Shown: positions 4,457 through 21,859 of the stretch, one piece after another | Layout of the letters: each line of letters starts with the position of its first letter | How positions within the stretch are numbered: position 1 is the stretch's first letter | Assembly: GCA_022703625.1 (NCBI GenBank) | Contig: JAKLDH010000005.1 | Span: forward strand, 1 to 55,846 | Length of the DNA stretch: 55,846 nt | Reading direction: 5' to 3' | From: Cyanobacteriota bacterium | GTDB taxonomy: Bacteria > Cyanobacteriota > Vampirovibrionia > Gastranaerophilales > UBA9971 | The notes under the pieces: model-generated | The model's input: only the letters and a program-made list of their open reading frames with translations | Told to the model about the DNA's origin: nothing | Databases searched by the model: none | Program-made: the position numbers and the translations under genes

Positions 4457-4519
4457 TTTAATCTGCTCCCTTATATTATTTTATACTTTGAGCTTAGATT
4501 GTCAACAGGAGCCTTTTTT

Positions 4520-5358: not shown

Positions 5359-5411
5359 AAATTATACCTTAATTTATTTATTTTAATTATATCATATTAA
5401 AGGAATTTTTC

Positions 5412-6116: not shown

Positions 6117-6121
6117 AAACT

Positions 6122-6445
6122 TTAAACTTTAATAATTTTGCCTTTTTTGATTATTTCCTGGTATAAAAAATCGCCTTCTTTGACATTTTGATATTCTTCA
6201 AGTGAATATGCCCGTGGCGAAATGTCAAAATCAAATTTTTCGCTAATTTCTTTTAATTTTACGCATTCATCAAAGAAATCTTTTCCAAAATCTGGAGAAA
6301 CAACGGCAACATCAATATCGCTGTCTTCTCCTGCTCTGTTTTCAGCATAAGAACCAAATAAAAAAGCAACTTCAACCTTTATATTACTATTTTTAATTGC
6401 TTTTATATAATCTTTAAGTTTTTTCATAATTGGTTTTTTAGCCAT
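6122..6445 (-). CDS. MNT-type nucleotidyltransferase antitoxin
   Basis: 107 aa minimal nucleotidyltransferase. FLFGSYAENRAGEDSDIDVAV (about residues 29-49) holds the GS and DxD residues that bind nucleotide and metal. It pairs with the HEPN protein encoded upstream. In known pairs the MNT protein neutralises the HEPN RNase by adding AMP to it. The ATG at 6445 has a GAGAGG site. An alternative ATG at 6427 would overlap the HEPN stop as ATGA. Antisense to the tail operon. Confidence 0.85.
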   Translation of the reverse strand: MAKKPIMKKLKDYIKAIKNSNIKVEVAFLFGSYAENRAGEDSDIDVAVVSPDFGKDFFDECVKLKEISEKFDFDISPRAYSLEEYQNVKEGDFLYQEIIKKGKIIKV

Positions 6446-6807
6446 TTAAAAACCTCTCTTGTTTGGTTGATAATTTTTAAAGTATTTTCCTTTGTACATT
6501 TTACTTTTAATTCATTTCTTTTTTCCGCATATCTGGTTTCAATATAATAAACATTTAAATATCTAAATAGAATTTTTGTTTCTTCTGAAAGTTTTTCAGT
6601 CAACTTTGTAATTTCTGAAAGATATATTAAATCGTGCTTTTTAGGCGCATCTTTTTCATTTTTATAAATATATATAGCCTTTATGGCTTTTTCAACGCAC
6701 TGTTGACACATAAAAACAGACCACAAAAACTGATTGCCCTTAAAACTCCACTCGGCAGCCTGTAAATCTTCTTCTGCAATATTAAACCAAATTTCATATC
6801 TTTCCAT
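6424..6807 (-). CDS. HEPN-domain toxin
   Basis: 127 aa, all-helical. The sequence WFNIAEEDLQAAEWSFKGN and CQQCVEKAIKAIY are hallmarks of HEPN proteins paired with MNT enzymes. KKHDLIYL follows in the middle, and YIETRYAEKRN near residue 95-105 supplies the arginine-containing motif. HEPN toxins of this type are RNases. Here the RX4-6H motif is not clearly complete, so activity needs testing. It is the first gene of the pair, 22 bases overlapping the MNT gene. Confidence 0.8.
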   Translation of the reverse strand: MERYEIWFNIAEEDLQAAEWSFKGNQFLWSVFMCQQCVEKAIKAIYIYKNEKDAPKKHDLIYLSEITKLTEKLSEETKILFRYLNVYYIETRYAEKRNELKVKCTKENTLKIINQTREVFKWLKNQL

Positions 6808-6837
6808 AATTTAATAATTATAACATATAAATCAATC

Positions 6838-7173
6838 ATGAACATAAGTATTTTATGCCAAAACATCGGCGGTTATGACGAAAAGCTTGACTGTCTTTAT
6901 ACTGTGTATCTTCTTTATCCAGAAATTCCTTCATATAATTTGATTCAGGACGAAAATTACTTTGTACCCCTTATAAACAAATACTTTATAGAAATTCAAA
7001 CTCCTGAACAAGGCGATTTGCTTCTTTTTAAATTGTTTAACGGCTTTCATTTCGGTATATATGCCGGTGATGACAAGTTTTTTCATTGCTGTAAAAAGCA
7101 TAAATTAAGATTAACGAATTTATCAGCGTATAAAAAGTTTTTAAAAGGTGTATATAAATGGTTTCATCAATAA
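6838..7173 (+). CDS. NlpC/P60-like tail tip peptidase, lambda K-like
   Basis: 111 aa, shorter than typical family members. A cysteine in KLDCLYTVYLLYP (C19) and a histidine in FHFGIYAGDD (H71) match the Cys-His core of NlpC/P60 cell-wall peptidases in tail tips. The fold GDLLLFK...HFGIYAG is conserved. The gene lies between the L-like and J-like genes and overlaps the latter by 16 bases. It probably cuts peptide crosslinks during DNA injection. No signal peptide. Confidence 0.75.
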   Translation: MNISILCQNIGGYDEKLDCLYTVYLLYPEIPSYNLIQDENYFVPLINKYFIEIQTPEQGDLLLFKLFNGFHFGIYAGDDKFFHCCKKHKLRLTNLSAYKKFLKGVYKWFHQ

Positions 7174-10100
7174 TTAGCGCGGTGTCATCAATAGGATTTG
7201 CGGTTGCAGGCGCTGCCGCATCAGCTTTTTCTTTCAGCGGCGGGTTTGGAACAATAATAAAAGTCGCAAGTTTTACTTTTAATGCGATAGATGCTTTGAC
7301 AAATAAACAGGAAACTCCTCTGCAAAATTCATCAAGCCCTACTTATACTTTTGGTCCTCTGCAAACACAGGTTTCAAACCTGCTTGCCCGTCCTATTGTC
7401 TATGGACAAGTTAAAATTGCCGGAAATAAAATCTGGCAAACAGGCGAAAATACATCAACCGTTAAACAAATAATATGCCTTTGCGACGGTGAAATAAACT
7501 CTATTTCAGAAATAAAACTTAATGATTTAGATATTACAACGCTTTCAGGCTGTTCATATACTGCTTATTACGGCAACGGAACTCAAAATATTGACTCAAG
7601 AGTCCCGGGAGCAACTCAGGCAATTAAAGCGGAAAAAGTGGGCGGGCTTAAATATGACGCTTACTTGGCAATTACGGCTCAAGCTTCTAAAAATCTGTCT
7701 AGCTCGGGGTTTAACGTAACCTGTATTGTTGAAGGCAAAAAAATTAGGGTTTATACAAATACTGAAACCTATACAACAACTTACAGCAGTAATCCAGCCT
7801 GGTGCATACTTGATTTTCTTGCTTGCTACAACGGAACAGGTCTTTCTTACAGCGAAATAGACATTCAAAGCTTTATAAATGCGGCTTCTTACTGCTCTGA
7901 ACAGGTTGACGGGCAGGACAGGTTTAAACTTAATATTGTTCTTGACGCTAAATTATCGCGGCTTGACTGGCTTAATGCCATGTTATTAGTTTGCAGAGGC
8001 TATATTGTTTATCAGTCCGGCAAAATATATCTTAAAATAGATCAGTCAGGAAGCGGCGTTCAAAGCTTTGACAGCTCTAATATTATTGCGGGAAGCGAAA
8101 AATTCTGGACGACGCCAAGAGAAAACAAGTATGACATAGTAAAAGTTCAGTTTATTGACCCAAACAATGAATACGCAAGAGTTTATGCCGTTGCGGAACT
8201 TTCGGATTACGGCAATGAACAGCCTATTGTTAAAACCGTTGAGGCTCTCGGGATAACAAATTTCAAGCAGGCTTCAAGATTAGCCTGGTTTTACCTCAAT
8301 GAAGCAACTACAACAAACAAATTTATAACTTTTTCTACGACAAAAGAAGGTCTGGACAGAACTATAGGCGATATAATAAGCGTTAGTTCCTCTGTAATGG
8401 GGTATACAAATAAAATTTTTAGAATTATCTCTATGAGTGAAGTTCAGGAAGGACAAATTGAGCTTACATGCAAGGAATATAACGCAAATTTATATGATGA
8501 CACACAGGGAAGCGTTGCGCCAAGCATTGATATAATTGACGGAACAAATATATTTAACACTGCCGTTACTGATGTTACCGTTCAGGGCGATACAAATACC
8601 GATCAAACAAGGGTTTTACAACAATTAATAGATAATCTGGCAGATGGAACCGGCGGAACTTTAAATGTAGACGCCTCTGAAACAGGCGTGTATATTAATG
8701 CGGCGTTAAATGTTAAGTCAAATGTTGATGTTAACTTTAAATGCCCTGTTTTTTTGGGAAAATACGGGCAACTTAGAATATATGGCGGATTTGCGGAAAC
8801 GCCTTCTGAAAACCTCCCTCAAATCCGCTCCGACCTTACCGCTGGAACAAAAACGATTTACTGCGGAACGGATGTTTACTCCACCGCTGATAATTACTCT
8901 GTCGGAAACAGAATTATAATAAGGGGCTTATCGGACGGAAACGGCGAGGCTATTGAATATCAGGAAGCAACTGTTTCAAGCGTTAATATCGAAGAAAACA
9001 ATATTACTATCGAAGAAAATTTAGAATATAACTTTAAAGCAAGCTATCCCACAGGAGATTACGAAGAAAATTTTGGCGTGGTCGACAGAACATATATAAC
9101 TTTCATGACTTTTACAACGTTAAATGCTGACGCGCAAAGAGCTGACACTTCCATTACAGTTTCTAACTCTTCAGGCTTTAATCTTGGAGATTATATTTTC
9201 TTTGGAGATAATAAAACACCTGCTGATATTACCGGGAGTTCAACAAATACCTTTAGGCATGAGGTAAATAAAATTATTGACATCTCAGGAACAACCATCA
9301 GCCTTGAAAATGCTCTTTGTCATGACTATGAAACCTCTTACAAAGCATATATAGTTAAAATGAATGTGGTTAAAAATGCTTCTATAAAAGGCGCTAAAGT
9401 AAATTATAACGCTGAACCCGATTCGTTTACAATAAATGCGTTTACAATAGCTTACGCAAAAGATTGCAGAATAACTGATTGCGTTGTTGAAAATGAAGGA
9501 GATTACACCAGCAAAGGGCACGGGTTCAGAATAGACAGGGCAATTAATTGCCATACAAATAATTGCGCTGTTTATTCTCCTAAATACATTGAAGCGTCTG
9601 AAGGTTACGGGTTCAGCTTTTACCGTTGCAATGGTTGTTCACACAACAATAGTTACGCTAAAGGTTGCAGACACTCATTTTTGACGTTTAGAGGGGCTAG
9701 CCAGAACAGATTTAACGATGTGATTTCCATAAACTGCCGAAAAAGCGACATTGACTTCCATGGCGGCGACGAATACGCCAATGTTGTTGACGGTTTTACA
9801 ATTATCGGAGGCAATCAGAAATATGGCTCTAACCTTGAAGCGATTAAATTTGGCAATGAGTCCCATGTTGCAGGCTCTTATAATAATATTGTCCGAAACG
9901 GAACTGTTGTTGATTATAAAGGCTATGGAACAGGCATAACGCCGATTTCAGAAAACAATATTGTTGAAAATGTTACATTTAGAAATATTGAGCAGTTAAT
10001 AAGATGCGTTGATCTCTCTCTTGACGGAACTTTAACTGCTTCAAACAATATAATTAAAAACTGCATTATAGATACGGTAACTTCTGATCTTGGAACTGTT

Positions 10101-11057
10101 GATTCAACTGTAAACGGAGGAAGTTCCCGGGTTATAGACGGCTTGGTTATTGATAATTGTTTGTTTAAAAACATTGAAACTTACTTCAAAAGCTTTAAAA
10201 ACACCGTTAATTGTAAAATACTGGACAATACTTTTATTAACGGCATTGAAAATACGGTTGACCCGTGGTTTATAGATGCTGATAACAGCGCTAATCTATT
10301 AATCAGCAATAATGTTATTCTCAAAGGCAATAAATTTGCCAGAATAAAGAACTGTACAGGCTTTATTTGCGAAAATAACAGGTTAAAAGATTTTTTTGAC
10401 AGCGTTGTTCTTGATGACGTTTCGGGAAATGACGGATATATATTCAAAAATAATGACGTTCAAGGCTTTTCTGAAACAATTGAAGCAGAAGAAGGCGGTT
10501 CTGACAGTGGAATATTGATTAAAAACAACTATATCCACAGTGAAATTGTTTTTTCAGATACTGTTTCTGCATCTGGCGCAAATATTACGGCATTAATTCC
10601 TTTTGACGGGACCACACCGCTTATAACAGAAGGTGAAGAAGTTTTAAACTGCGTGTATCAGCCTAAAAATACTAAAGCTTTAATTAAACTGGACTGCATA
10701 ATACCTGCTGTATATACGGATGTGGCGACAAATGCGGTGTTAAGCCTTTTTAAAAATTCGGATTGCATTGGAGCTACCGGTATAAGGCTTCCAAATACAG
10801 GCTCAAGCTCCGGCGATTTTATACAATTAACCACTATGATTGATATTTCAAGCATTAATCCGTTTAGTTTATCTTTAAGACTGGGCGCTAAAACTTCTGG
10901 TCCTGTTTTAACAATTGGGGACAGGTTTAACGGGCTTGGAATTCCTTATATTATTATCGTTGAAACAGGGTATTCTGAAATAAATGATTGCTTATACACT
11001 GAAGATTTAAGCGGGTTTATTGTTACAGAAGATTATAAGCATTTTAATAAGGAGTAA
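7158..11057 (+). CDS. Tail tip (gpJ/GTA gp15-like) protein fused to a beta-helix tailspike
   Basis: 1299 aa. Residues 1-450 resemble tip attachment proteins: a small hydrophobic, glycine/alanine-rich N-terminus, then LARPIVYGQVKIAG and RLDWLNAMLLVCRGYIVYQSG. From about 480 to 1110 the protein turns into a right-handed beta-helix, with many NNxxxNxxVENxxF-like turns (for example ENNIVENVTFRNIE). This fold is used by tailspikes that bind or cut polysaccharides. The last 150 residues look like a jelly-roll cap. The fusion would place a glycan-active spike directly on the tail tip. Confidence 0.75.
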   Translation: MVSSIISAVSSIGFAVAGAAASAFSFSGGFGTIIKVASFTFNAIDALTNKQETPLQNSSSPTYTFGPLQTQVSNLLARPIVYGQVKIAGNKIWQTGENTSTVKQIICLCDGEINSISEIKLNDLDITTLSGCSYTAYYGNGTQNIDSRVPGATQAIKAEKVGGLKYDAYLAITAQASKNLSSSGFNVTCIVEGKKIRVYTNTETYTTTYSSNPAWCILDFLACYNGTGLSYSEIDIQSFINAASYCSEQVDGQDRFKLNIVLDAKLSRLDWLNAMLLVCRGYIVYQSGKIYLKIDQSGSGVQSFDSSNIIAGSEKFWTTPRENKYDIVKVQFIDPNNEYARVYAVAELSDYGNEQPIVKTVEALGITNFKQASRLAWFYLNEATTTNKFITFSTTKEGLDRTIGDIISVSSSVMGYTNKIFRIISMSEVQEGQIELTCKEYNANLYDDTQGSVAPSIDIIDGTNIFNTAVTDVTVQGDTNTDQTRVLQQLIDNLADGTGGTLNVDASETGVYINAALNVKSNVDVNFKCPVFLGKYGQLRIYGGFAETPSENLPQIRSDLTAGTKTIYCGTDVYSTADNYSVGNRIIIRGLSDGNGEAIEYQEATVSSVNIEENNITIEENLEYNFKASYPTGDYEENFGVVDRTYITFMTFTTLNADAQRADTSITVSNSSGFNLGDYIFFGDNKTPADITGSSTNTFRHEVNKIIDISGTTISLENALCHDYETSYKAYIVKMNVVKNASIKGAKVNYNAEPDSFTINAFTIAYAKDCRITDCVVENEGDYTSKGHGFRIDRAINCHTNNCAVYSPKYIEASEGYGFSFYRCNGCSHNNSYAKGCRHSFLTFRGASQNRFNDVISINCRKSDIDFHGGDEYANVVDGFTIIGGNQKYGSNLEAIKFGNESHVAGSYNNIVRNGTVVDYKGYGTGITPISENNIVENVTFRNIEQLIRCVDLSLDGTLTASNNIIKNCIIDTVTSDLGTVDSTVNGGSSRVIDGLVIDNCLFKNIETYFKSFKNTVNCKILDNTFINGIENTVDPWFIDADNSANLLISNNVILKGNKFARIKNCTGFICENNRLKDFFDSVVLDDVSGNDGYIFKNNDVQGFSETIEAEEGGSDSGILIKNNYIHSEIVFSDTVSASGANITALIPFDGTTPLITEGEEVLNCVYQPKNTKALIKLDCIIPAVYTDVATNAVLSLFKNSDCIGATGIRLPNTGSSSGDFIQLTTMIDISSINPFSLSLRLGAKTSGPVLTIGDRFNGLGIPYIIIVETGYSEINDCLYTEDLSGFIVTEDYKHFNKE

Positions 11058-11060
11058 ATT

Positions 11061-11426
11061 ATGGCTAATCAAAAAATTACACAATTAACAGAGCTTACAG
11101 CGGTTGATAAAGCGGATATTCTTTATATTGTAGATGACCCTAGCGGTACGCCTGTAAGCAAAAAAGCTACCGCAAAAAATATAACCAAGGCTGGAGCGGC
11201 TGACGGCGCATGTTCAGCCATCATGGACGCTAATTTAACCGCGTCAAAAAACCTCGTTTCTGACGGTAGTGGAAAAATTACTACGACTGACAACATATTT
11301 TGCCGCTGGAGAGGCGCTTCCGCCGGTGATCCAGGCTCAAATCTGGCGGGTGATTTATATAAAGACACCTCTGACAGCGATAAAATTAAAATTTACGACG
11401 GTTCAACCTATATAACTTTGAATTAG
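11061..11426 (+). CDS. Short tail fibre/structural protein
   Basis: 121 aa with the N-terminal pattern NQKITQLTELTAVDKADILYIVDDPSG. This pattern is found in many phage proteins that sit after the tip protein and anchor fibres. The C-terminal part (GDPGSNLAGDLYKDTSDSDK, then KIYDGSTYITL) matches a common fibre repeat. A GGAG site lies before ATG 11061, and the gene is 3 bases after the tip gene. Likely a virion component. Its exact role is unknown. Confidence 0.6.
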   Translation: MANQKITQLTELTAVDKADILYIVDDPSGTPVSKKATAKNITKAGAADGACSAIMDANLTASKNLVSDGSGKITTTDNIFCRWRGASAGDPGSNLAGDLYKDTSDSDKIKIYDGSTYITLN

Positions 11427-11436
11427 GGGGCTATTT

Positions 11437-11778
11437 ATGGCAATTACTATATCAGGAAATGACATATATATAAAAAAAGGGGATTCTGCCTCTATTAACC
11501 TTGATTTTAATATTAATATTACAGGAGCAACCCTCTATTTTACCGTGAAAGCATCTATTGACAACACGGAAAATACTTTTCAAAAAGTCGTAACTTCTCA
11601 TTCTGATGCCGCAAACGGTCTTACGACAATTACTTTAAGCTCTACTGACACAAATATTACAGCAGGGCAATATGTTTATGACATTCAAATTAACCTTCAG
11701 GGCGGCGCCGTGCATACTATTTTCCCGTCAAACGCAAATAAAACCGGTTATTTATACATAACAAAGGGGGTTTCATAA
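11437..11778 (+). CDS. Baseplate/fibre adaptor with immunoglobulin-like fold
   Basis: 113 aa, entirely beta-rich, beginning with a [23 protein letters not shown] stretch that resembles the N-terminal domain of BppU-type baseplate proteins. [13 protein letters not shown] near the end is the usual last strand pair. A GGGGGC site precedes the ATG. The start of the next gene overlaps its stop by one base (TAATG), indicating coupled translation. It probably attaches the downstream fibre or lectin proteins to the tip. Confidence 0.55.
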
Positions 11779-12461
11779 TGAGTGACATCTCTGTAACAAT
11801 AAGTTCCGGCGAAACAATCTCTGTAGCCCTTAACGGGGACAATACAAGAGCCTCTCAAATTGCTGTTAGCGCAACAAATTTTGACGGAAATTTATCCTCC
11901 GCCGATACCAACGTTCAAAAAGCGCTTGAAACCCTTGATGAAATGACGGGGCTTGGTGGCGGAGAAACAAATACAGCCAGTAATGTCGGAACTTCCGGTG
12001 TTGGCGTTTTTAAACAAAAATCAGGCGTTGATTTACAGTTCAAAAAAATAAATGCAGGCTCTGCAAAGGTTACCGTAACTGATGATACTGAAAACAGCGA
12101 AGTTGATATTGATGTAAGCATTAGTAAGTCTGATGTCGGGCTCGGCGATGTCGCAAATGTTAACTGGGGCAATATCTCAACAAAAACAGACGACTATACG
12201 CTCGCTTTAGCTGATAACGGCAGGGTAATTACTCTTAATGCGGCGACTGCAAAAACTATAACTGTTCCGGATAGTCTTTCCGCCGGTTTTTCCTGCTCTG
12301 TTCTTCAAATTGGAGCGGGACAGGTCGCTTTTTCCGGCTCTGGAAGCATGGCGATTAGAAACAGGCAATCCCACACAAAGACAGCGGGGCAATACGCCTT
12401 GTCTACGCTTTTTGTGTATGCCTCAAACAATGTCTTATTACAGGGGGACACCGCATCATGA
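11778..12461 (+). CDS. Tail fibre protein
   Basis: 227 aa. Contains the fibre motif [18 protein letters not shown] (about residues 40-58) and the [14 protein letters not shown] repeat seen in many tail fibres. A C-terminal domain ([20 protein letters not shown]) resembles a small trimerising head. Its start overlaps the previous stop and its stop overlaps the next start (ATGA), so the fibre genes form one translational chain. Likely a trimeric fibre for host binding. Confidence 0.65.
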
Positions 12462-13348
12462 GTTTTATAATCCCAAGCTTTCAAGGATTAGCTGCATTTT
12501 CCTCCGCGCCGCTGCTCCTTGATAATATTTCAAATCTTTCTTTTTCTGCGGTTTGGTCATTAATAAGGGAATTAACCAGTTATACGGGTTATCTTTGCGA
12601 TATTCGGATCGACAAAGTCGGGCAGCCTGAATATAGGGTTAAATACGACGCTAATAATGTTTTTTCCCTCAATAGTCCTTGTTATGACTCTTCGGACGCT
12701 TATCAGGGCGCTCTTGGCGATCTTGTGGGCAGCGACAGCGCTTATTGCAAAAAATATTACGACCAAATCGGGGCGCAGCATGTAATACAAGCAACGGATT
12801 CGGCTCAGCCTAAAATTATAAACGCCGGGTCGTTAATAACTCAAAATTCCAGTCCTGTCTTAAGTTTTGACGGCGGGGATTGGCTTCAGCGCCAAGATGC
12901 GGTTATAATTAATCAAACAAGCGGAACATGGACGTTTTTATGCGGAGTAATTGACGATTCCGGAGATACAACAACGGACCAAATTCTTGATCATGATCAA
13001 AACCCTCGTGTAGCCCAGTTTTTACGCAAAGCCAGCTCTAACTACAATACTATAACTATTGTCCCATCTGTAGTAACCTGCACAGAAGCTAAGCAAGCAA
13101 GTTTTAATATTTGCTCCGGGTCCAATGACGGAACTAATATGGGTTTGTATGTTAACAATGATGGCGATGACATCAAAAGCGCTGCCGGTTCAGCTACAGG
13201 AGCGGCTCATTTTACAATGGGAGCCACTTGGGCAGGACTTAATCTTTTTACAGGCAAATTGGGAGCTGTAATTTTTGCTAACAACACTAACACAACAGAT
13301 CGTGAAGCCATAAGGGACGCTTTAATGACTAGATATGGGGTGTCTTAA
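12458..13348 (+). CDS. Concanavalin-like lectin / arabinofuranosidase-like receptor-binding protein
   Basis: 296 aa. The segment [23 protein letters not shown] (about 98-120) matches the YDQSGNGNxxxQ...QP signature of phage and environmental ConA-like domains related to GH54 arabinofuranosidases. A second beta-sandwich follows ([11 protein letters not shown] through MTRYGVS). No clear catalytic acid pair can be assigned, so sugar binding is more likely than cleavage. As the last fibre gene it is a good candidate receptor-binding tip. Confidence 0.65.
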
Positions 13349-13423
13349 CTGATCCTCCTTATAAAACCGCCCCGTCAACAATATAAATTTCAAATTATTT
13401 ATATAACTAAAAGGAACAAAAGA

Positions 13424-13588
13424 ATGGAATGGTTAAATCTAGTGCCTCTGCCTATTGCTCTTGGCATGGTTTTATATGTTAACAGCAGAATTGAAACCCA
13501 TGAAATAAATTGCCCGATACACGATCAATTAAACAGTTTAAACAAAAAAATTGATATGATTCTTGAACACTTATTGGGAAAAAGGTGA
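13424..13588 (+). CDS. Small holin-like membrane protein, 54 aa
   Basis: ATG 13424 after AAAAGGAAC encodes MEWLNLVPLPIALGMVLYVN, one membrane helix, then a polar amphipathic stretch (DQLNSLNKKIDMILEHL). A helix plus short coil upstream of the endolysin fits a holin, an XhlA-like haemolysin or an adaptor. The stop overlaps the possible GTG start of the endolysin, and the operon context supports a lysis role. Assignment by size and position only. Confidence 0.5.
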   Translation: MEWLNLVPLPIALGMVLYVNSRIETHEINCPIHDQLNSLNKKIDMILEHLLGKR

Positions 13589-13593
13589 TTAAT

Positions 13594-14028
13594 ATGGATA
13601 TATGGCGCGCTTTAAAACACTTTAAGCCGCATGAAAATTGGGGCAACTCTAAAAAAATAAATGGCATGCTTCTTTTACTGCTTGATGAAATAACAGAACA
13701 GGTTAAAAGCTATTCCCTCTGTAATTATAATAAAAATTCACCCTGTATTATACATTGCGCTTATGAAACCTCAGGACATTCCCCTAATTCACAACACTAT
13801 AAAGGAAATGCGGCTGACTTTCATTTTAGCAATATACCCCCTTTTAAAACATATGAAACCATTATAAAAGTATTGAAAGACACGCAAACAGAAAATTTTG
13901 TTGGTCTTGGCGTTTATCCTGATTGGATTAATCCTGGTTTTCATCTTGACGCAAGAGGAGAAAAAGCCAGATGGTCAAGAATTAACGATGTTTATAAATC
14001 AATTAACGACGGTTTAAATAAACTGTGA
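13594..14028 (+). CDS. Endolysin, peptidase M15 family
   Basis: 144 aa from ATG 13594, which has AAAAAGG 8 bases upstream. A GTG at 13585 overlapping the preceding stop is possible. SGHSPNSQHYKGNAADFHF (about residues 58-76) and GFHLDAR near residue 120 carry the His, Asp and His zinc ligands of M15 (D,D/L,D-carboxypeptidase-like) peptidases. The enzyme would cleave peptidoglycan stem peptides at the end of the lytic cycle. No signal peptide, so it relies on a holin. Confidence 0.8.
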   Translation: MDIWRALKHFKPHENWGNSKKINGMLLLLLDEITEQVKSYSLCNYNKNSPCIIHCAYETSGHSPNSQHYKGNAADFHFSNIPPFKTYETIIKVLKDTQTENFVGLGVYPDWINPGFHLDARGEKARWSRINDVYKSINDGLNKL

Positions 14029-14039
14029 AAGGATAATTT

Positions 14040-14264
14040 ATGAAAGATTTTTTTGAAACGATTATTAATGCCATTATTGAAGCTGAAAACACTTATATAA
14101 ATATTCCGCAAAGCGGAAAACAAAAAAAAGAAATAGTGATTGAAACTATTAACAAAATAATTGATATCCCTGTTATTCCCGAATTTCTGGAAGAACAGGC
14201 CTTTTCTTTAATTATAGATTTAATTGTTTTTATTTTTAACAAATATAATTTTTTTAACAAATAA
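14040..14264 (+). CDS. Possible second holin or lysis accessory protein, 74 aa
   Basis: AAAGGATAATTT precedes ATG 14040. The N-terminal 50 residues are amphipathic and charged. The C-terminus (AFSLIIDLIVFIFNKYNFF) is a single hydrophobic helix. Tail-anchored small proteins at this place, after the endolysin and before a terminator, are often holins or antiholins. No recognised family. The gene ends the late operon. Confidence 0.45.
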   Translation: MKDFFETIINAIIEAENTYINIPQSGKQKKEIVIETINKIIDIPVIPEFLEEQAFSLIIDLIVFIFNKYNFFNK

Positions 14265-14339: not shown

Positions 14340-14837
14340 TTATATTACCCTGATTTTCCACCATTTTTTATTTATTTTTTGTTTTAACTCTTCATTTTCC
14401 CGCTTTAATTGTTTTGATTGTTCCAATACCTGTTTTAATTCGGCGTTTAATCTTATTAATTCTTTATCTTTTCGGTTTTCTGAGTCTTCTATTAACTTTT
14501 GTTGCAATTCTGCTTTTAAAGCCCTTTCAATATACGATTCAATTCTGTCATTATACCCCTTTGAATACTCTAAAATTTTATTAACGATTTCTCCTTGATC
14601 TAACTGGCTATTCTGGGAAACAAAACTGGTTTCGTTGTGGGTTTCAATTGTTTCGTTACTTATTTCAATGCCAAATTCGTTTAATTGTTTGCTTGTTAAC
14701 TCAACAGCCTTTACAGCTCTATTGTTTACATGTTTCACAACCGTTTCAATACCCATTTTTCTGATTTTTTTCTCTATTGTTGTTCTGGAAACGGATAATG
14801 TTTCTGCCAGTTCACTTATGGTGTATTTAAAGCCCAT
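14340..14837 (-). CDS. HTH DNA-binding protein with coiled-coil tail (plasmid/phage regulator or replication accessory)
   Basis: 165 aa. Residues 1-45 (YTISELAETLSVSRTTIEKKIRKMG) form a MerR/DUF536-like helix-turn-helix. Residues about 105-155 (ELIRLNAELKQVLEQSKQLKRENEELKQK) are a clear coiled coil. This layout is known from plasmid replication-associated and phage regulatory proteins. It is transcribed divergently from the HTH gene at 15062. The shared 224-bp region has a perfect palindrome over a promoter, a likely binding site for this protein. It could be a repressor or a partition/replication factor. Confidence 0.6.
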   Translation of the reverse strand: MGFKYTISELAETLSVSRTTIEKKIRKMGIETVVKHVNNRAVKAVELTSKQLNEFGIEISNETIETHNETSFVSQNSQLDQGEIVNKILEYSKGYNDRIESYIERALKAELQQKLIEDSENRKDKELIRLNAELKQVLEQSKQLKRENEELKQKINKKWWKIRVI

Positions 14838-14884
14838 TTGAAACCCCTTTTATTTCTAATTTTAATACCCTTTTAATATGGCTC

Positions 14885-14922
14885 TTGACAGCGCTTTTAA
14901 AGTGTATATCATGAACATGATA
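14885..14922 (+). promoter_or_regulatory. Rightward promoter with overlapping operator palindrome
   Basis: TTGACA at 14885-14890 and TATCAT at 14907-14912 are spaced by 16 bases. The -10 box is the left arm of TATCATG-AA-CATGATA (14907-14922), a perfect 7-bp-arm palindrome. A protein bound there would block the polymerase. The downstream transcript would include 15062-15685 and then the polysaccharide genes from 15692. Confidence 0.6.
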
Positions 14923-14947
14923 AAAATTAAATATGAAAAAACCCTCT

Positions 14948-15007
14948 TTAAGGGAGGGGCTTTAAAAATTTCTTTTTAATATTTGCAAAATTATTATCCT
15001 CCCTTAA
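14948..15007 (+). promoter_or_regulatory. Inverted repeat in the leader before the replication-type HTH gene
   Basis: TTAAGGGAGG (14948-14957) and CCTCCCTTAA (14998-15007) are perfect inverted copies separated by 40 AT-rich bases. Each arm also sits in a smaller imperfect palindrome around TTAAGGG. They could form a leader hairpin or be paired protein sites. An origin function is possible but there are no clear iterons. Confidence 0.4.
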
Positions 15008-15061
15008 GGGAATTTTGTCAATGTTTTATTTCAGTTTTAACCTGATGGAGGAGGATTTCTT

Positions 15062-15685
15062 ATGCAAAATTTAACCGGCGCGGCTAAAAACAATTTTACT
15101 CAGTTTGAGCTTTCTAAATTGCTTATTACAAGTCATTTTTTTTCAAAGAATAAAATGAGCCCGTCTGCAAGGCTTGTTTTAATTGTTTTGTGTTCGCATT
15201 ATCCTAATGTGTATCCAAGCATAAAAACTATTCAAAATGAGTCGGGTATCGCTTCTAAAACAAGCGTTATTAATTCCTTGAAGGAATTGTCAAAAGCAGG
15301 GTTTGTTTTGTATGAAACAAAAAATGTTAACCATTACACTTTTACTTCTTATTTTTTTGAAATTTTAAAAGTTGGACCTGGCGGGTACAGGGATTGTAGT
15401 GGTGGTGGTACAAAAATTGGTCATAAACAAATAAATAAAAATATAAATAATAAATTTGAAAAAAAATTAAATTTTTTGGAAAAAAGGGGAAAGGAACCTA
15501 AAGATTATAAGAATACTTATTTAACGGGAATTAATTATCCAAAATGGCAAAAACCAATAAAACATGAAAAAAGTTCTCCTTTGGATTTAAATGAAGAACA
15601 AGCAATCAGTTTTTTGGAAAAATTGCCTAAAAGTATGCATAATACCTATTTTGCTTTAGAATTAAAGAAAAAATGGAAAATATAA
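15062..15685 (+). CDS. Helix-turn-helix protein, replication initiator-like
   Basis: 207 aa with a strong GGAGGAGG site. Residues 30-95 (MSPSARLVLIVLCSHYP, then IQNESGIASKTSVINSLKELSKAGF) form a winged helix of the HTH_36/phage O-protein N-terminal type, found in plasmid and phage replication proteins. The C-terminal half is basic and poorly conserved, with no helicase or primase motif. It is the only replication-like gene in the window. It stops 6 bases before the first polysaccharide gene, so the two are probably co-transcribed. Confidence 0.6.
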   Translation: MQNLTGAAKNNFTQFELSKLLITSHFFSKNKMSPSARLVLIVLCSHYPNVYPSIKTIQNESGIASKTSVINSLKELSKAGFVLYETKNVNHYTFTSYFFEILKVGPGGYRDCSGGGTKIGHKQINKNINNKFEKKLNFLEKRGKEPKDYKNTYLTGINYPKWQKPIKHEKSSPLDLNEEQAISFLEKLPKSMHNTYFALELKKKWKI

Positions 15686-15691
15686 TTAAAA

Positions 15692-17161
15692 ATGGAAAAC
15701 GCAAATAAACTTTTTGGAGCTGTAAAATGGTCGATGTTGGCGGAAATCTCTTCTAAAGCTGTTACTCCTCTAATTTTTATAATTTTGGCAAGGATTTTAA
15801 GTCCTGAAGATTTTGGGGTTACTGCTATTGCGGCTATTATAATAAGTTTTTCACAGATTTTTTGGGATGCCGGTTTAAATAAAACGCTTATTCAGCGGCA
15901 AAAAGATGTTGAAGAAACCGCAAATATTGTATTTTGGACAAATATAACTTTAAGTATTTTAATTTATCTGGTCCTTTTTGTATTTGCGGGAGAAATTGCC
16001 GCATTGTTCAAGGAGATGAGGGCGGAAGCCGTAATTAAAGTTCAGGGGTTGCAAATAATTTTAGCTTCGCTTTGTTCGGTACAAACGGCTTTATTTCAAA
16101 AAGAAATGAATTTTAAGCCTATATTCTGGACAAAATTCATTTCTTCTGCGCTTCCGGGTTTTTTGTCAATTCCTCTTGCTTTAATGGGCTTTAATTATTG
16201 GGCTTTAGTCGCAGGAACATTATCCGGATCAGTGGCGCAGGTTTTTATTTTATGGTTTATAAGTTCATGGCGTCCGGTTTTTCAATATAATTTAAGGATA
16301 GCAAAAGAGCTTTTGGGTTTTGGTTGCTGGGTTTTAGGAAGGGATTTATTGGGATGGCTGATTGTATGGACTGATTCGATTATTGTCGGATGTTTTTTAA
16401 CTTCGCATGAGTTGGGATTGTTTAAAACAGGCGGTAATTTTGTATTAATCTTTTTGGCGGTAACTGTGTTGCCCTTAGAGCCTATAATATACAGTTATCT
16501 TTCCCGTTGGCAAAACGATTTTTCTAAATTTAAAAAAATATTAATGGATGCTAATAAAATCGTTTTTTCAATAGTTCTTTTTATTGGACTTTTTTTGTGT
16601 CTTGAAGGTCAATCAATCTCTGGTTTATTGTTTGGGAGCGCCTGGAACGGAATTGGTCCGGTTATTGTTACAACCGGTTTAAAAAATGCTTTAACTTATT
16701 TGGTTTATATAAATACTTTTGCTTATATGGCTATTAACAGACCTGATTTGTCAACTAAAATTACTGTTTTTGGGTTGTTTTGGTATTTGCCGCTTTATTT
16801 ATATTCAATCACTATAAGTTTTAATTGTTTTTTGTGGACAAGATTAATAATTACTATAATACCGGTATTATTGCAGGTATTGATTGTTAAAAAAGTTTTT
16901 AAAATAAGTTTAATCAGTTATTTTAATAATGTTAAGTGGAGTTTTATTGCAGGATTAATTTCTTTTGTTTTTATAAAAATTATTGATGGTTTTATTGTTA
17001 ATTCAATTTATGAACTTGTTTTTCATATAAGTTTAATTATATTAGTTTATTTTTTAATATTGTTATTTGACAAAGATTTATTGAATTTTGTAAAATTATT
17101 GTTTATTAAAATAAGGGATGTTTTTGAAAATAAAATTAAAAATATTAAATTTATATTATAA
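15692..17161 (+). CDS. Lipopolysaccharide/polysaccharide flippase, Wzx/WzxC-like
   Basis: 489 aa with about 12-14 hydrophobic segments from residue 12 on. ILARILSPEDFGVTAIAAII and the following FWDAGLNKTLIQRQ are diagnostic of MOP-superfamily polysaccharide exporters. It moves lipid-linked oligosaccharide across the inner membrane. It is first in a rightward run of six genes (15692-21698) with short gaps or overlaps. A second, unrelated flippase lies at 25038. Base composition becomes visibly more AT-rich from here to about 27 kb. Confidence 0.85.
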   Translation: MENANKLFGAVKWSMLAEISSKAVTPLIFIILARILSPEDFGVTAIAAIIISFSQIFWDAGLNKTLIQRQKDVEETANIVFWTNITLSILIYLVLFVFAGEIAALFKEMRAEAVIKVQGLQIILASLCSVQTALFQKEMNFKPIFWTKFISSALPGFLSIPLALMGFNYWALVAGTLSGSVAQVFILWFISSWRPVFQYNLRIAKELLGFGCWVLGRDLLGWLIVWTDSIIVGCFLTSHELGLFKTGGNFVLIFLAVTVLPLEPIIYSYLSRWQNDFSKFKKILMDANKIVFSIVLFIGLFLCLEGQSISGLLFGSAWNGIGPVIVTTGLKNALTYLVYINTFAYMAINRPDLSTKITVFGLFWYLPLYLYSITISFNCFLWTRLIITIIPVLLQVLIVKKVFKISLISYFNNVKWSFIAGLISFVFIKIIDGFIVNSIYELVFHISLIILVYFLILLFDKDLLNFVKLLFIKIRDVFENKIKNIKFIL

Positions 17162-17906
17162 AATTATAGGGGAATTTCCGAAATGTACAGTATTTAGCGC
17201 AGATTGGATAAATACCAGAGTTAGTTGCAAATTTTTTAAAAAAATAAAAAAACATTTTATAAAGTCGTCTTATATTATTATTGATGTTGGCTCAGGGGCA
17301 AGCCCGTATTATAATTTTTTTCAAGACATAGATAAAGAATATATTGCGGTTGATCTTCAAACAGCATTACCTAAAAATGAAAAGAGAAAAATAAAACAAA
17401 TAGTCGGGTCAATAGAATGCCTGCCTTTTTCTGATAATTCAGCGGATATAATTCTTTGCGCCGCTGTTTTAGAACATGTTGAGGATCCCTTTAAAGCATT
17501 TAAAGAAATATATAGGGTATTAAAACCAGGCGGTTTTTTTATAGGCTCTATTCCTTTTTTGTATCCTATACACATGGAGCCTTATGATTATTGGAGATTT
17601 ACTGATTTTGGAATAAAAAAAATATTATTAAAAGAAAACTTTGAATTACTTGAATTTGATAGAAATTTTGGTGTTTTTTCAGCAATAACAGTTATTATAA
17701 ATAGAGGATTAATATGCCCTTTTAAAACAAATTTTGAAAAAATTAATAAATGTTTTAAAATAATTGATAATTTATATGTTAGAGAGTTTTTGTTTTTTCC
17801 AATAATAGGTTTTTTAAATATAATAAGCTTTTTATTGGATAAAATATTTATTTTCAATAGGAATAATTCAGCGACAATTTTTCTTTGGTTATCTCAGAAA
17901 AACTAA
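17118..17906 (+). CDS. SAM-dependent methyltransferase
   Basis: 262 aa. Motif I IIDVGSGASPYYNF (about 54-67), acidic residue AVDL (77-80) and the post-motif LCAAVLEHVEDPFKAFKEI with VLKPGGFF mark a class I methyltransferase of the Methyltransf_11 type. The C-terminal hydrophobic stretch may hold it at the membrane. Overlaps the flippase by 44 bases. Likely methylates a sugar or lipid-linked intermediate. Substrate unknown. Confidence 0.75.
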   Translation: MFLKIKLKILNLYYKIIGEFPKCTVFSADWINTRVSCKFFKKIKKHFIKSSYIIIDVGSGASPYYNFFQDIDKEYIAVDLQTALPKNEKRKIKQIVGSIECLPFSDNSADIILCAAVLEHVEDPFKAFKEIYRVLKPGGFFIGSIPFLYPIHMEPYDYWRFTDFGIKKILLKENFELLEFDRNFGVFSAITVIINRGLICPFKTNFEKINKCFKIIDNLYVREFLFFPIIGFLNIISFLLDKIFIFNRNNSATIFLWLSQKN

Positions 17907-17937
17907 ATTATAATAAAATAAATTAAAGAAAGTTTAA

Positions 17938-18885
17938 ATGAAAAAAAGAAAACCAATATATTTTGTGTCATATCCAAAATCCGGCAGAACCTGGATTACG
18001 ATGATGCTGGCTTATATTCAGGCAAAAATGACAGGTCAGGAAATAGACGCTTGTTTATATAATTTTGGTGTTTATAAGTCAAAAAAAGATGATTTAAATT
18101 TTCCGAAAATTATAATTGATCACGCTTTTAAAGAGGAATATATTTATCAGGGGAAAAAGTTTCCTCTGGATTTTTATAAAAATAGAAAAATTTTGCTTTT
18201 AGCCAGAGATCCTAAGGATGTATTGGTTTCTCACTATCATTTTTTTAAAAACAGATACGGAATAATAAAAAGTGATATAAATGATTTTATTAAATTTAAA
18301 TATAATAAAAAATATTTTTATATAACTACGTTTTTAACAAATAATAATATTTTAAAATATTTTGGCTTTTTTAATTTTATTATTTGTCCTTTTTTAAATT
18401 TTATTCATAATAAGGCGCATAAAGATATTTTTATTGATAATATAGGCAAAAGTAAATACCGAATGTATGCGGAAAGATTTGGGTTGGAAACAATCGTTAA
18501 TTATTTGAACTCCTGGGTAGAAAATAAAAATTCTTTTGCTGATTTTAGGATTTTTTATTATGAAGATATAAGAAAAGAGCCGTTTCTGTCTTTTAAACAA
18601 ATGTTAGAGTTTCTTGAAATAAAATGTGAGGATTATTTAATTAAAGAAGCTATTGAATTTGCTTCTTTTGAAAATATGAGGAAAATTGAACTTGAAGGCT
18701 CTATAAAATGGGAAGATTTGTATTTAACAAAAAAAGAAAATTTTGTTCAACAAAATTTTTTAATGACCAGAAAAGGGCAGGTCGGTTCATATAAAGAGGA
18801 ATTATCGCAGGAAATGTCGGAATATATTGATAATTATATTAGGGACAGACTTAATAATGAGTTTATAAGGTATAAAAGAGCATAA
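17938..18885 (+). CDS. PAPS-dependent sulfotransferase
   Basis: 315 aa. YPKSGRTW (12-19) is the 5'-phosphosulfate loop, ILLLARDPKDVLVSHYHFF (85-103) holds the Arg and Ser that bind the 3'-phosphate, and TRKGQVGSYKEE near the C-terminus matches the RKGxxGDWK signature. The enzyme transfers sulfate from PAPS to a hydroxyl, here probably a sugar of the surface glycan. No PAPS synthesis gene is in the window, so the host must supply it. Very AT-rich. Confidence 0.9.
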   Translation: MKKRKPIYFVSYPKSGRTWITMMLAYIQAKMTGQEIDACLYNFGVYKSKKDDLNFPKIIIDHAFKEEYIYQGKKFPLDFYKNRKILLLARDPKDVLVSHYHFFKNRYGIIKSDINDFIKFKYNKKYFYITTFLTNNNILKYFGFFNFIICPFLNFIHNKAHKDIFIDNIGKSKYRMYAERFGLETIVNYLNSWVENKNSFADFRIFYYEDIRKEPFLSFKQMLEFLEIKCEDYLIKEAIEFASFENMRKIELEGSIKWEDLYLTKKENFVQQNFLMTRKGQVGSYKEELSQEMSEYIDNYIRDRLNNEFIRYKRA

Positions 18886-19476
18886 ATGATTAAAGAAATT
18901 TTTTGTTTAAATTATATTATATTTAATAATTTAATTAAAGAAGCCTTTATAAGAACTCATTTGACGAATGAGGAAAAAATTAACTTATATAGATTTTCTA
19001 AGAAATTAAAAAAGCAAAATCCCATTGCTTTGGAAATAGGAAGTTATTTGGGGGCTAGCGGTTGTTTTTTGGCAAAGGGATTAAAGGGTTTTAACGGGAG
19101 GCTTTATTGTGTTGATACCTGGCAGAATAACGCTATGGACGAGCCTGAAAGAGATACTTTTAATGAATTTACGCAAAATATAAAAAAATATACGGATATA
19201 ATAATTCCTTTAAAGGGGAAAAGTTGTAAAGTTGTTGAAGAATTTAGAAAAACAGGAAAAAATATAGATTTGCTTTTTATTGACGGCGATCATAGTTATG
19301 AAAGCTGTAAAACAGATTGGGATTTATACAGCCCACTTTTAAATAAAAATGCTGTTGTTATTTTTCATGATACAGGTTGGGCTGAGGGAGCACAAAGGGT
19401 TATAAAAGAAAATGTTGTTAATATCGCTGATAAAATTCTTGAGCTTAAAAATATGCAGGCGTTTAAATTAAAATGA
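18886..19476 (+). CDS. Class I methyltransferase (Methyltransf_24 type)
   Basis: 196 aa. ALEIGSYLGASGCFLAKGL (about 44-62) is motif I and LLFIDGDHSYESCKTDWDLY (about 138-157) the acidic loop typical of cephalosporin-hydroxylase/Methyltransf_24 proteins in glycan clusters. It begins directly after the sulfotransferase stop and overlaps the next gene by 4 bases (ATGA), so it is tightly coupled in the operon. Confidence 0.8.
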   Translation: MIKEIFCLNYIIFNNLIKEAFIRTHLTNEEKINLYRFSKKLKKQNPIALEIGSYLGASGCFLAKGLKGFNGRLYCVDTWQNNAMDEPERDTFNEFTQNIKKYTDIIIPLKGKSCKVVEEFRKTGKNIDLLFIDGDHSYESCKTDWDLYSPLLNKNAVVIFHDTGWAEGAQRVIKENVVNIADKILELKNMQAFKLK

Positions 19477-20483
19477 TGAAGTATTCAATAATTATTCCTG
19501 CATACAATAGAAGTTGTTTGCTTGAGCGGTGTCTTAAACATCTTTCCGGATTAAATAAGCCGGACTTTGACTATGAAGTTTTAGTTGCAGATAACGGTCC
19601 AACAGACAAAAACAAAAGGGTTTACGAATCATTTATAGGGAAAATTCCAAATTTAAGCTACTTTTATGAAAAAGAATCGGGGCTGCTCGTTGGAAGACAT
19701 TCAGGCGCAAGAAAAGCTCAGGGAGAAATTCTTTGTTATCTTGATGAGGATAGTTTTGTTGATAAAAATTGGCTTATAGCTATAGAAAAAGCTTTTAAAA
19801 ATCCTGAAATTAAGATTGCCACAGGGTTAGTTCTTCCGGAATATGAAGTTAAACCGCCGGAATGGCTAAAATATGCCTGGATAAAAAATAAACACGGTAA
19901 ATATTTAGGTTCTTTAAGCTTGCTTGATTTTGGGCAAAAAGAAAAAATAGTTTCGCCTTTATTTGTTTTCGGATGTAATTTTATAATTAGAAAACAGGTC
20001 TTTTTTGACTTTAAAGGAACCCATCCCTGTAGTATGCCGGAAGGTTTGTTTGAATATATTGGCGATGGAGAAACAGGACTGGCAAAAAAACTTGTTTTAA
20101 AAGGAATACAGGCTTTATATTCGCCGGAAATCAAGATTAATCATTTTGTTGCTGATTCAAGAATGACAGAAGATTATTTTGTAAAACGTTTTTTTCATGA
20201 AGGAATCTGTAATTCCTTTACGGAATATCGGCAAAAATACGGTTTATACGGGAAAGAAAGAAATAAATATTTGGTTTTGGCTAATTATTTCAGGTTTTTT
20301 GAGAAATTATCACGGCATTTTGCAGAGAAATTGCTGTTTTCTCATGATGATAATTATAAAAAATGTCAAAAGATTTTGTCAGAAGCGAAAAAAAGCTATA
20401 ATAAAGGCAAGCTTTTTCATAAAGAAAAAGTGGAAAATAATCCTGAGTTGTTAAAATATGTGTTGAAAGAAAATTATTTATAA
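19473..20483 (+). CDS. Glycosyltransferase family 2
   Basis: 336 aa. SIIIPAYNRSCLLERCLKHL opens a GT-A fold. VADNG follows, and ILCYLDEDSFVDKNWL (about 87-102) carries the DED nucleotide-metal motif. EFGDGETGL-like EYIGDGETGLAKKL (about 193-206) is the acceptor-side acidic motif. No membrane helix. It adds one sugar to the growing lipid-linked unit in the cytoplasm. Donor unknown. Confidence 0.85.
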   Translation: MMKYSIIIPAYNRSCLLERCLKHLSGLNKPDFDYEVLVADNGPTDKNKRVYESFIGKIPNLSYFYEKESGLLVGRHSGARKAQGEILCYLDEDSFVDKNWLIAIEKAFKNPEIKIATGLVLPEYEVKPPEWLKYAWIKNKHGKYLGSLSLLDFGQKEKIVSPLFVFGCNFIIRKQVFFDFKGTHPCSMPEGLFEYIGDGETGLAKKLVLKGIQALYSPEIKINHFVADSRMTEDYFVKRFFHEGICNSFTEYRQKYGLYGKERNKYLVLANYFRFFEKLSRHFAEKLLFSHDDNYKKCQKILSEAKKSYNKGKLFHKEKVENNPELLKYVLKENYL

Positions 20484-20486
20484 AAA

Positions 20487-21698
20487 ATGTCGGAAAACAA
20501 TAAAAAAAGAATAGCGGTTTTTTTCTATGAAAATAGAAATATTAATACTTACCCATATGTCGTTAATTCAGCGCGTTTGTTGGCGGAGCAGGGATATTTT
20601 GTTGATATTTACCTGAATGAATCTCAAAAAACAGAATTAGACATTGAAAATTGCAAATTTTTTATAGTCAGTGATTTAGATAGATATAACTATATTTTTA
20701 ATACGGCAAAACAGGTTCACGATCAACGCTATAACTATGATTTTTTGTTTGTGTATTCGCCGGAAGGTCTTTTAATAAGCTTTTTGTTAAATCAGTACGC
20801 TAAAAATATTATTCCGGCAGTTTATTTTTCAATGGAATTAAAATACAAATATATTATTTTTCTTTATATATTAGAAATTATATTTATATATTTTTTGTTA
20901 AGATTTAGTTTCTCTAAAATTAAGTTTAAGGTGTTAAAAACTTTGTTTATTTATAGTTTTCAAAAAGAAAAAATGAAAAAAATAATAAAATTTTCAGTGG
21001 TTATGGATAAAGACAGAGCGGAGATTTTGAAACGGGAATTTGATTTTGTAGACAGGATAGTTCTTTTGCCTAACAGTTATATAGGTTTTTTAGAAGCTTC
21101 CTCGGATTTTGCTTATAAAAAGTTTAATATTCCGGCGGATAAAAAAATTCTGTTGTTTACAGGCGGTATTGAAAAAGCGGTTTTTGACGAAAAATTGCCT
21201 TTAGCGCTTGAAAAGCTTGGAACAGAATACACGCTTTTGTTAAGCGGATTTAGCAGGTTTAACTATCTCGAAGAAATTAAAAGACAATATAAACTTTTGA
21301 TTGAAAACAAAAGACTTGTTATAAATGACGTTAATCTTGATGAACAGGAATATGACGAGCTTATAAGAAGCTGTTATATTGGGCTTGCCTGGTATAAAAA
21401 GACAAAAGTTAAAAATCTTTATTATATGGGTTTATCGTCAGGAAAATTAACAAAATATTTGTCCTGTAAAAAGCCTGTTATTGCTCCTTCTTTTCTTTAT
21501 AAATATTCGGAAATAATAGACGTAAATCAAATAGGCAAAACTTGCGCTGACGTTTCAGACATTCCGGAGGCGGTTAAACAGATTGAGCTTAATTATAATA
21601 AATTTACTGAAAATGTTGAAAAGTTTTATATTGAAAATTTGGAGTTTGAAAAGCAGTTTCAAAAGGTGATAAAAGCATTAAAAGAAATCGGCAAATGA
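20487..21698 (+). CDS. GT-B glycosyltransferase (GT4-like)
   Basis: 403 aa. An N-terminal Rossmann half (KKRIAVFFYENRNINTYPYV) is followed by a hydrophobic hairpin (about 115-150, FLYILEIIFIYFLL) that may anchor it to the membrane. The C-terminal half has LLFTGGIEKA and YYMGLSSGKLTKYLSCKKPVI, with the S/G-LxxYLxxxxPVI signature of GT4 enzymes. Its last codons run into repeat element R2b. A similar end (ATAAAAGCATTAAA) recurs beyond the element at 21851, so the original stop may have been displaced. Confidence 0.7.
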   Translation: MSENNKKRIAVFFYENRNINTYPYVVNSARLLAEQGYFVDIYLNESQKTELDIENCKFFIVSDLDRYNYIFNTAKQVHDQRYNYDFLFVYSPEGLLISFLLNQYAKNIIPAVYFSMELKYKYIIFLYILEIIFIYFLLRFSFSKIKFKVLKTLFIYSFQKEKMKKIIKFSVVMDKDRAEILKREFDFVDRIVLLPNSYIGFLEASSDFAYKKFNIPADKKILLFTGGIEKAVFDEKLPLALEKLGTEYTLLLSGFSRFNYLEEIKRQYKLLIENKRLVINDVNLDEQEYDELIRSCYIGLAWYKKTKVKNLYYMGLSSGKLTKYLSCKKPVIAPSFLYKYSEIIDVNQIGKTCADVSDIPEAVKQIELNYNKFTENVEKFYIENLEFEKQFQKVIKALKEIGK

Positions 21699-21852
21699 AA
21701 AAGATGATTTTTGTAAATCCTTAATTTGCAGGTGTTTTGCCAAAGGCAAAACACCTGCTATAACCGTCTATAGCCCGCGCCGCCCGCAGGGCGGCGCGGG
21801 CTATAGATATTAGCTTTTTAATAAATTAACGAAAACTTATTTGGATTGGTAT
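21690..21852. repeat. Double-hairpin inverted-repeat element R2b (inverted relative to R2a)
   Basis: Reverse complement of the family copy at 2229-2413. It contains GCAGGTGTTTTGCC/GGCAAAACACCTGC with loop aaa, a GC stem TAGCCCGCGCCGCCC/GGGCGGCGCGGGCTA with loop gca, and the end ATTGGTAT at 21845-21852. The left inverted end is not clear. ATAAAAGCATTAAA occurs on both sides (21669-21682, 21851-21864). It separates convergent GT operons and may also terminate transcription. Confidence 0.6.
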
Positions 21853-21859
21853 AAAAGCA

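Follow-up and report, generated by a model that had tools for sequence, protein, structure and literature searches.

Gene content of the contig and the divergent pair at 14340-15685

The window analysed here is the whole of contig C112 (55,846 bases) from a 2.5-Mb Gastranaerophilales MAG in 166 contigs. Profile matches place phage head-tail, tail, gpJ-like and endolysin genes on the forward strand at 489-14264, a surface-glycan cluster of 23.5 kb at 15692-39238, and an HTH_3 gene with terminase, portal, protease and capsid genes and interspersed cargo at 39252-55462, the glycan genes being flanked by phage parts on both sides (the tail-endolysin block at 0.5-14.3 kb and the terminase-capsid block at 44.3-55.5 kb). 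The glycan cluster comprises Wzx flippases, glycosyltransferases, methyltransferases, a sulfotransferase, a DegT aminotransferase, an amine oxidase and two PMT-like genes. Phage structural genes and rep, described below, share one contig, the combination of structural genes with plasmid-type replication functions by which a phage-plasmid is recognised. Across the MAG, capsid and terminase give a single match each; the related genomes G004 and G005 hold further, distant matches. The gpJ gene has relatives in MAGs named Candidatus Gastranaerophilales and Melainabacteria bacterium GWF2_37_15. The phage structural genes are open reading frames, but the tape measure (3371-4126) is short, at 251 aa compared to 1000 aa in the phage contig L061 (4885-7887), whose gpJ is 66% identical; short tape measures also occur in G002, G003 and G005 and are reminiscent of gene transfer agents. 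Toxin-antitoxin-like pairs lie amid the phage structural genes (4887-5358, 6122-6807, 50687-51109 and 51323-51907; two HicA by Pfam, the rest by eye). A flavin amine-oxidase-like enzyme (36016-37527) has a match in all ten family genomes, weak in G006, and the only close copy in the MAG sits on this putative phage-plasmid. Gene names on the G009, G012, G038, G258 and G331 contigs were assigned by eye from translations, as were, without a profile, the nif, modA, trpB, dTDP-sugar, ArdC-like, resolvase and some toxin-antitoxin genes.

Between the first phage part and the glycan cluster lie two divergent genes, one on the reverse strand (14340-14837, 165 aa) and rep on the forward strand (15062-15685, 207 aa), which the sequence-only reading had taken for a coiled-coil HTH gene and a winged-helix, replication-like gene forming a phage-plasmid-like replication or control pair. 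These assignments were borne out: the product of rep, REP, matches HTH_36 (PF13730, E 3e-9) and replication-initiation PHROG_270 (E 1.5e-10), an AlphaFold2 model of the 14340 protein shows a winged HTH (1-55), a disordered linker and, supporting the coiled coil, a single long helix (81-164) ending KKWWKIRVI, and the pair recurs on plasmid-like contigs and at phage-type loci. The same reading had stated that no integrase is present; a tyrosine integrase (PF00589) is indeed absent from the contig, but eight matches occur on other contigs of the MAG, where an integrase had been named as grounds for refutation, and none of the eight is linked to the element.

Only HTH_36 exceeded the cut-off among Pfam matches of REP at E ≤ 1, and RepA_N was not among them. 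A REP profile built from four rows matched 33 of the 383 genomes of the order. Scanning IMG/VR with REP found no relative, PLSDB gave no match to the window REP and two weak partial Mesorhizobium matches to that of contig C55, phage records yielded six matches only, all weak and partial, and sequence searches of the PDB returned nothing useful. A fold search with the REP model (mean pLDDT only 59) retrieved common winged-helix proteins and singled out no initiator, and no convincing iteron family was found around rep. On the best reading, REP would start theta replication from an origin located within rep or close to it. One genome, G009, has three plasmid-like contigs (L106 on C62, L107 on C92 and L028 on C55), all with the rep, antisense and HTH-coiled-coil module, and their leader sequences differ among themselves, as those of compatible plasmids would. 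On the 12.2-kb contig C62, which by eye carries no phage genes, one rep is split across both contig ends, as expected of a circle.

In all 12 leaders that were compared, an HTH-coiled-coil gene precedes rep and diverges from it. The C-termini of homologues of the 14340 protein are KWW, FFGLK-type or transmembrane-like; the transmembrane-like end replaces KWW in three of them (L083, L084 and L101, by eye), which suggests membrane tethering. No DUF536 was among the listed matches of the 14340 protein, and a fold search with its model gave nothing below E 0.02, with RacA at E 0.15. The architecture of the protein is Par/RocS-like, and it probably acts in segregation as a one-protein system of the pSK1-Par/RocS type.

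The rep leader and its predicted antisense RNA

The rep promoter, TTGACA-16-TATCAT, lies at 14885-14912 (forward strand, promoter match 11/12), between the two genes as had been proposed, and a promoter was called here in 11 of 12 related leaders, G331 being the exception. Its -10 (14907-14912) falls inside an operator-like inverted repeat at 14907-14922 (TATCATGAACATGATA). The repeat had been called a perfect palindrome; it is self-complementary at 14 of 16 positions, with 7-bp arms around a central AA (TATCATG-AA-CATGATA). Inverted repeats with a gap of 2 nt and arms of 7 or more appeared in 7% of 1000 Markov-1 resampled versions of the intergenic region, and in the window the pattern is found once without mismatch and twice with up to two mismatches, compared to a chance mean of 0.24. 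CATG half-sites spaced by 2-3 nt stand at the rep -10 in five of the twelve related leaders (by eye). An operator at the rep -10 is plausible, and the CATG dyad fits a second, protein-based control alongside an antisense RNA, the short, predicted RNA looking like the main conserved control rather than the -10 operator.

That RNA is suggested by a second, leftward promoter and a leftward terminator in the intergenic region, both overlooked in the sequence-only reading. The promoter, TTGACA-17-GATAAT, occupies 14993-15021 on the reverse strand (match 11/12), with identical hexamers in the G4 and G5 leaders and analogous ones in the other nine (weakest -10, 4/6). It would give an antisense (countertranscribed) RNA of about 50 nt (14936-14986, reverse strand) complementary to the rep mRNA leader and ending at element I, a hairpin at 14942-14958 followed by T6 that matches an intrinsic terminator; with the T6 run, the terminator spans 14958-14936, about 50 nt past the leftward promoter. 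Element II (CCTCCCTTAA, 14998-15007, forward strand) is predicted to pair either with leader positions 14948-14957 (TTAAGGGAGG) or with the rep Shine-Dalgarno sequence (GGAGGAGGA, 15047-15055). Element II also overlaps a palindrome, TCCCTTAAGGGA, and element I is a dyad.

This layout is kept in twelve related leaders from plasmid-like and phage-type loci of Gastranaerophilales, which were partly picked by eye (divergent HTH gene and terminator visible) and of which L106 (C62) and L061 were placed by hand to reach twelve; the predicted antisense RNA measures 37-54 nt across them. Elements I and II differ in sequence between loci, yet are complementary within each. The pairing is locus-specific, with a cognate mean of -19.92 kcal/mol compared to -9.53 kcal/mol for permuted partners over the 12 loci (0 of 5000 as low), and, when each of eight groups (labels assigned by the analyst) contributed a single locus, -20.38 compared to -9.81 kcal/mol (again 0 of 5000). 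In the G0, G5 and G4 leaders, the central bases of I and II vary together on both sides (TTAA/TTAA, TTT/AAA and TAT/ATA, by eye). When 30 REP loci, a subset of the REP matches that leaves aside L106 (no start) and L104 (no REP), were scored by one rule, ten had a terminator 107-120 nt before the start codon, a leftward promoter and I:II pairing (P ≤ 0.05), 17 had no terminator, and three had a terminator without I:II support. Rfam returned no family at gathering score. An antisense gene with its own terminator can be read within the rep leader in all twelve cases, with I and II covarying, and the layout is that of antisense-controlled rep genes, with promoter, terminator and RNA as predicted features.

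Pairing of element II with the Shine-Dalgarno sequence was weak over the 12 loci (P = 0.067) and stronger over the eight group representatives (P = 0.0026). Eleven leaders were folded with element I blocked, G349 being left out as its Shine-Dalgarno sequence was not recognised. Access to the Shine-Dalgarno sequence dropped strongly in C55, C62 and C92 and less in G258, G5 and G331, stayed near zero throughout in L061 and G12, and did not drop in G0 (the window leader, 0.15 to 0.15), G4 and G38. As a general rule, this pairing is only partly supported.

The first glycan gene, a Wzx-type flippase (PF13440, E 2e-74), begins at ATG 15692, 6 bp after the rep stop at 15685 as had been noted, and genes from 15692 to 21698 follow closely spaced on one strand. 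From this junction it had been proposed that one operator governs both replication and glycan expression, subject to a check for a terminator near 15.69 kb. On the forward strand from 15062 to 18200, terminator matches fall only inside genes (15250-15266 and 18147-18169), and read-through from rep into the glycan genes is possible in the window. The link is not conserved, however: in G004, rep is followed by two toxin-antitoxin-like genes and the glycan genes point towards it, and G005 has another gene about 105 bp after rep. The idea that fusion of rep and glycan genes into one operon is a conserved arrangement was rejected, since G004 and G005 are organised differently. The operator itself is plausible, and glycan control by it is possible for the window.

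Gene order, strand composition and repeats

Capsid and head-tail genes stand at opposite ends of the window but are neighbours in the four relatives in which they were seen (G002, G003, G004 and G005). The sister genome G005 carries these phage genes as one uninterrupted block in which capsid adjoins head-tail, followed by rep and then by glycan genes, so that the window, with phage genes at both ends, is circularly permuted relative to G005. Two contigs of G004, if joined, give the order of the window. The junction between the PMT and HTH_3 genes, with 13 bp between them in the window and 23 bp in G004, closes a circle and is repeat-free in the window.

The detrended cumulative GC skew of the window has its minimum at 15,007, within the rep leader, and its maximum at 42,640, an arc of 27,633 compared to a half-contig of 27,923. 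When GC3 skew was fitted with gene orientation as a covariate on a 500-bp grid, the best half-circle origin fell at 15.0 kb, with a residual of 98 compared to 277 without arcs. The skew coefficient of the window (automatic ORFs) was 0.21 (R2 0.66; 0 of 200 permutations as good), and those of nine other contigs of the MAG were 0.03-0.08, the sequences of C1 and C96 in this comparison being short of their last bases. The permuted order and the skew minimum in the rep leader lend further support to the phage-plasmid-like character of the pair. In the G004 composite, the best skew origin (29.0 kb) was close to rep (29.19 kb; coefficient 0.07, P = 0.01), with the raw minimum elsewhere; in G005, the origin was off rep (34.5 compared to 26.7 kb); and the chromosomal copy in G002 gave a significant fit too (0.08). 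Moreover, the skew arcs nearly match the division into glycan and phage content, and since a break at the glycan edges fits nearly as well as a half circle (rss 107 compared to 98), the skew signal is confounded by gene content.

Both contig ends (1-43 and 55804-55846) lie inside a dispersed hairpin repeat of about 174-182 bp. Joined, they make up a single 174-bp copy that has 93.7% identity with one on contig C1, a result consistent with a circle. The end-repeat arm occurs 156 + 147 times in the MAG, and overlap of the contig ends as proof of a circle was rejected because the bases in common come from a repeat with hundreds of copies. A dispersed repeat of about 182 bp also occurs in the phage part (2227-2403) and in the glycan part (21673-21855), and several of the MAG contigs listed begin within such a repeat.

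Two related copies have neighbours of chromosomal type. The G005 copy adjoins nif-like genes (L024, G005:C289, 41.7-52.4 kb), a set that includes, as the neighbour of the phage HTH_3 gene, a modA-like gene; this modA-like gene has a match in two of the ten family genomes, one of them weak. In G002 (L039/L040, G002:C86, about 35-60 kb), a phage cluster without rep lies between a dTDP-sugar-like and glycan cluster and a trpB-like gene. Given these flanks, the element can be chromosomal. Similarities of the phage proteins roughly track rpoB of the hosts, those of the capsid less so; close capsid relatives occur one per genome in five of the ten family genomes, and a close rep is found in three of these five (G000, G004 and G005). 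For the window itself, the 55.8-kb contig is probably a whole circle, with a terminus near 43 kb.

A proposed maintenance cassette of pSK1/pSK41 type and its alternatives

From the gene pair, the promoter and terminator matches, the covarying elements I and II, the permuted order and the skew, we infer, as the reading with a good but far from complete claim, that 14340-15685 is the maintenance cassette of a circular, extrachromosomal phage-plasmid, similar to those of pSK1 and pSK41 and consisting of an antisense RNA, the initiator REP and a Par-like protein, with the glycan genes as cargo. The leftward promoter would drive the antisense RNA of about 50 nt, terminated by hairpin I. As long as no antisense RNA is bound, I could pair with II in the leader, leaving the ribosome site open; once the RNA occupies I, II would be released and could pair with the rep Shine-Dalgarno sequence, so that REP output would fall with rising copy number. 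This ON/OFF leader model is drawn by analogy from proposals for pSA564, pSK1 and pSK41 in portions of the source texts (PMC8129170, PMC5703833), and for its last step, in which antisense binding lets II hide the Shine-Dalgarno sequence, support is partial. The 14340 protein may additionally repress rep through the CATG dyad on the rep -10.

It is rather unlikely, though a serious prospect, that the phage genes and glycan cluster form a locus of the chromosome maintained by vertical descent, either a domesticated phage or something like a gene transfer agent, whose circular order arose from a tandem copy or repeat mis-joining and whose rep cassette is a leftover. The flanks in G002 and G005, one close capsid per genome in half of the family genomes, gene similarity roughly in step with rpoB, the tape measure of a quarter of the length found in the related phage contig, the toxin-antitoxin genes and host-type repeats within the phage part, and contig ends that both lie in an abundant repeat would all suit such a locus. 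The enzyme at 36016, with its matches across the family, would be odd as plasmid cargo and tells against the phage-plasmid reading. Against the chromosomal reading stand the skew minimum at rep with the maximum opposite, the repeat-free PMT/HTH_3 junction that closes a circle in the window, the conserved antisense layout, and the absence of a second capsid or terminase copy from the MAG; mis-joining in the glycan part is also less easy, since the repeat copies there are at most 91% identical to long matches elsewhere.

The intergenic region invites two further readings. Inverted repeats ahead of rep genes are often initiator sites, and elements I and II could be operator repeats in DNA, bound by REP or the 14340 protein, with no RNA switch; the palindrome overlapped by II, the dyad in I and the -10 dyad, which suggests that DNA operators are present in the region, speak for this, but it sits poorly with the leftward promoter and T-run terminator that bracket I and II at near-constant spacing in ten of the 30 scored loci and in the two placed by hand, and with central bases that change on both sides, and we think it decidedly improbable. 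Divergent HTH genes with a -10 dyad also resemble immunity regions, and the pair might be a lysogeny or lysis switch of repressor and activator, no replication unit, that drives the glycan operon in line with the operator idea of the sequence-only reading, as the 6-bp junction and the lack of a forward terminator match between rep and the flippase gene would allow. This we consider very improbable indeed, as REP matches replication-initiator profiles and is encoded on plasmid-like contigs, the antisense layout is typical of rep genes in the portions of a review bearing on it (PMC5703833), the window has an HTH_3 gene resembling a repressor elsewhere, at 39252, and the junction with the flippase gene is not conserved. 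An extension of the maintenance-cassette reading, in which a phage-plasmid of these non-photosynthetic relatives of cyanobacteria carries the host glycan locus and the rep antisense switch sets glycan dose and, by read-through, expression, is also improbable, with perhaps an outside chance; if true, superinfection exclusion would be tied to copy number, glycans being what phages bind.

Antisense control of rep with a divergent segregation gene is best known from staphylococcal plasmids. As far as the excerpts of PMC5703833 and PMC8129170 go, the rep leader of pSK41 encodes a short antisense RNA roughly 100 nt ahead of the start region, the pSK1, pSK41 and pSA564 leaders are proposed to adopt ON and OFF folds that exclude each other and conceal the ribosome site, and the divergent upstream gene rac of pSA564 could serve segregation. 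The window resembles these RepA_N replicons in its rep-leader antisense RNA, predicted here, and pSA564 in its divergent gene, but REP is of HTH_36 type, the predicted RNA is 37-54 nt compared to about 83 nt in the staphylococcal plasmids of those excerpts, and the module lies in another phylum alongside phage structural genes. According to the part of the review concerned with RNA control (PMC5703833), such control is apparently absent from RepA_N plasmids of other genera. The same text describes for pPR9 an autonomously replicating Rep with a pfam13730 HTH, a phage-like N-domain and an upstream control region of pSK41 type; the likeness to REP covers the HTH_36 N-domain and the control region only, and pPR9 is a staphylococcal plasmid and not a phage. 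The 14340 family appears to share with pSK1 Par, RocS and RacA, as excerpted from PMC11500499, a winged HTH, a coiled coil and a short C-end, or in three homologues a transmembrane-like stretch, but differs in the lack of a listed DUF536 match and the weakness of the RacA fold match.

Extrachromosomal mycobacteriophage prophages, in the passages of PMC7157519 that treat them, are maintained in a plasmid state by RepA or RNA-based origins with parABS adjoining structural genes. The window likewise has a predicted replication gene and a putative segregation gene adjoining structural genes, and would be kept as a plasmid in a similar way, but the RepA of those prophages is of another family, their partition is by ParABS, and an antisense switch in the repA leader does not feature in those passages. 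In the Synechocystis plasmid pSYSA, as excerpted from PMC9978351, ssr7036/asRNA1 and CyRepA1 form a system in which an antisense RNA beside rep sets copy number and loss of rep leads to integration. An antisense RNA beside rep, predicted for the window and acting in a cyanobacterium in pSYSA, is the trait in common, whereas in that excerpt Rep is a helicase-primase, the antisense RNA is directed against a small protein-coding gene, and a ColE1-like mechanism is given.

Read in this way, the logic, an antisense-controlled rep with a divergent segregation-type gene, is a known one, and what differs is the initiator type, the phylum and the phage setting. No description of this module in Gastranaerophilales was found in the open-licence papers searched. 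If true in the phage-type and plasmid-like loci of Gastranaerophilales, it would mean either a wide spread of antisense rep control or its convergence, and a phage-plasmid would be connected with surface-glycan cargo of very large size. Gastranaerophilales is, to our knowledge, an order without genetic tools, and the rep-14340 module is a candidate minimal replicon for it.
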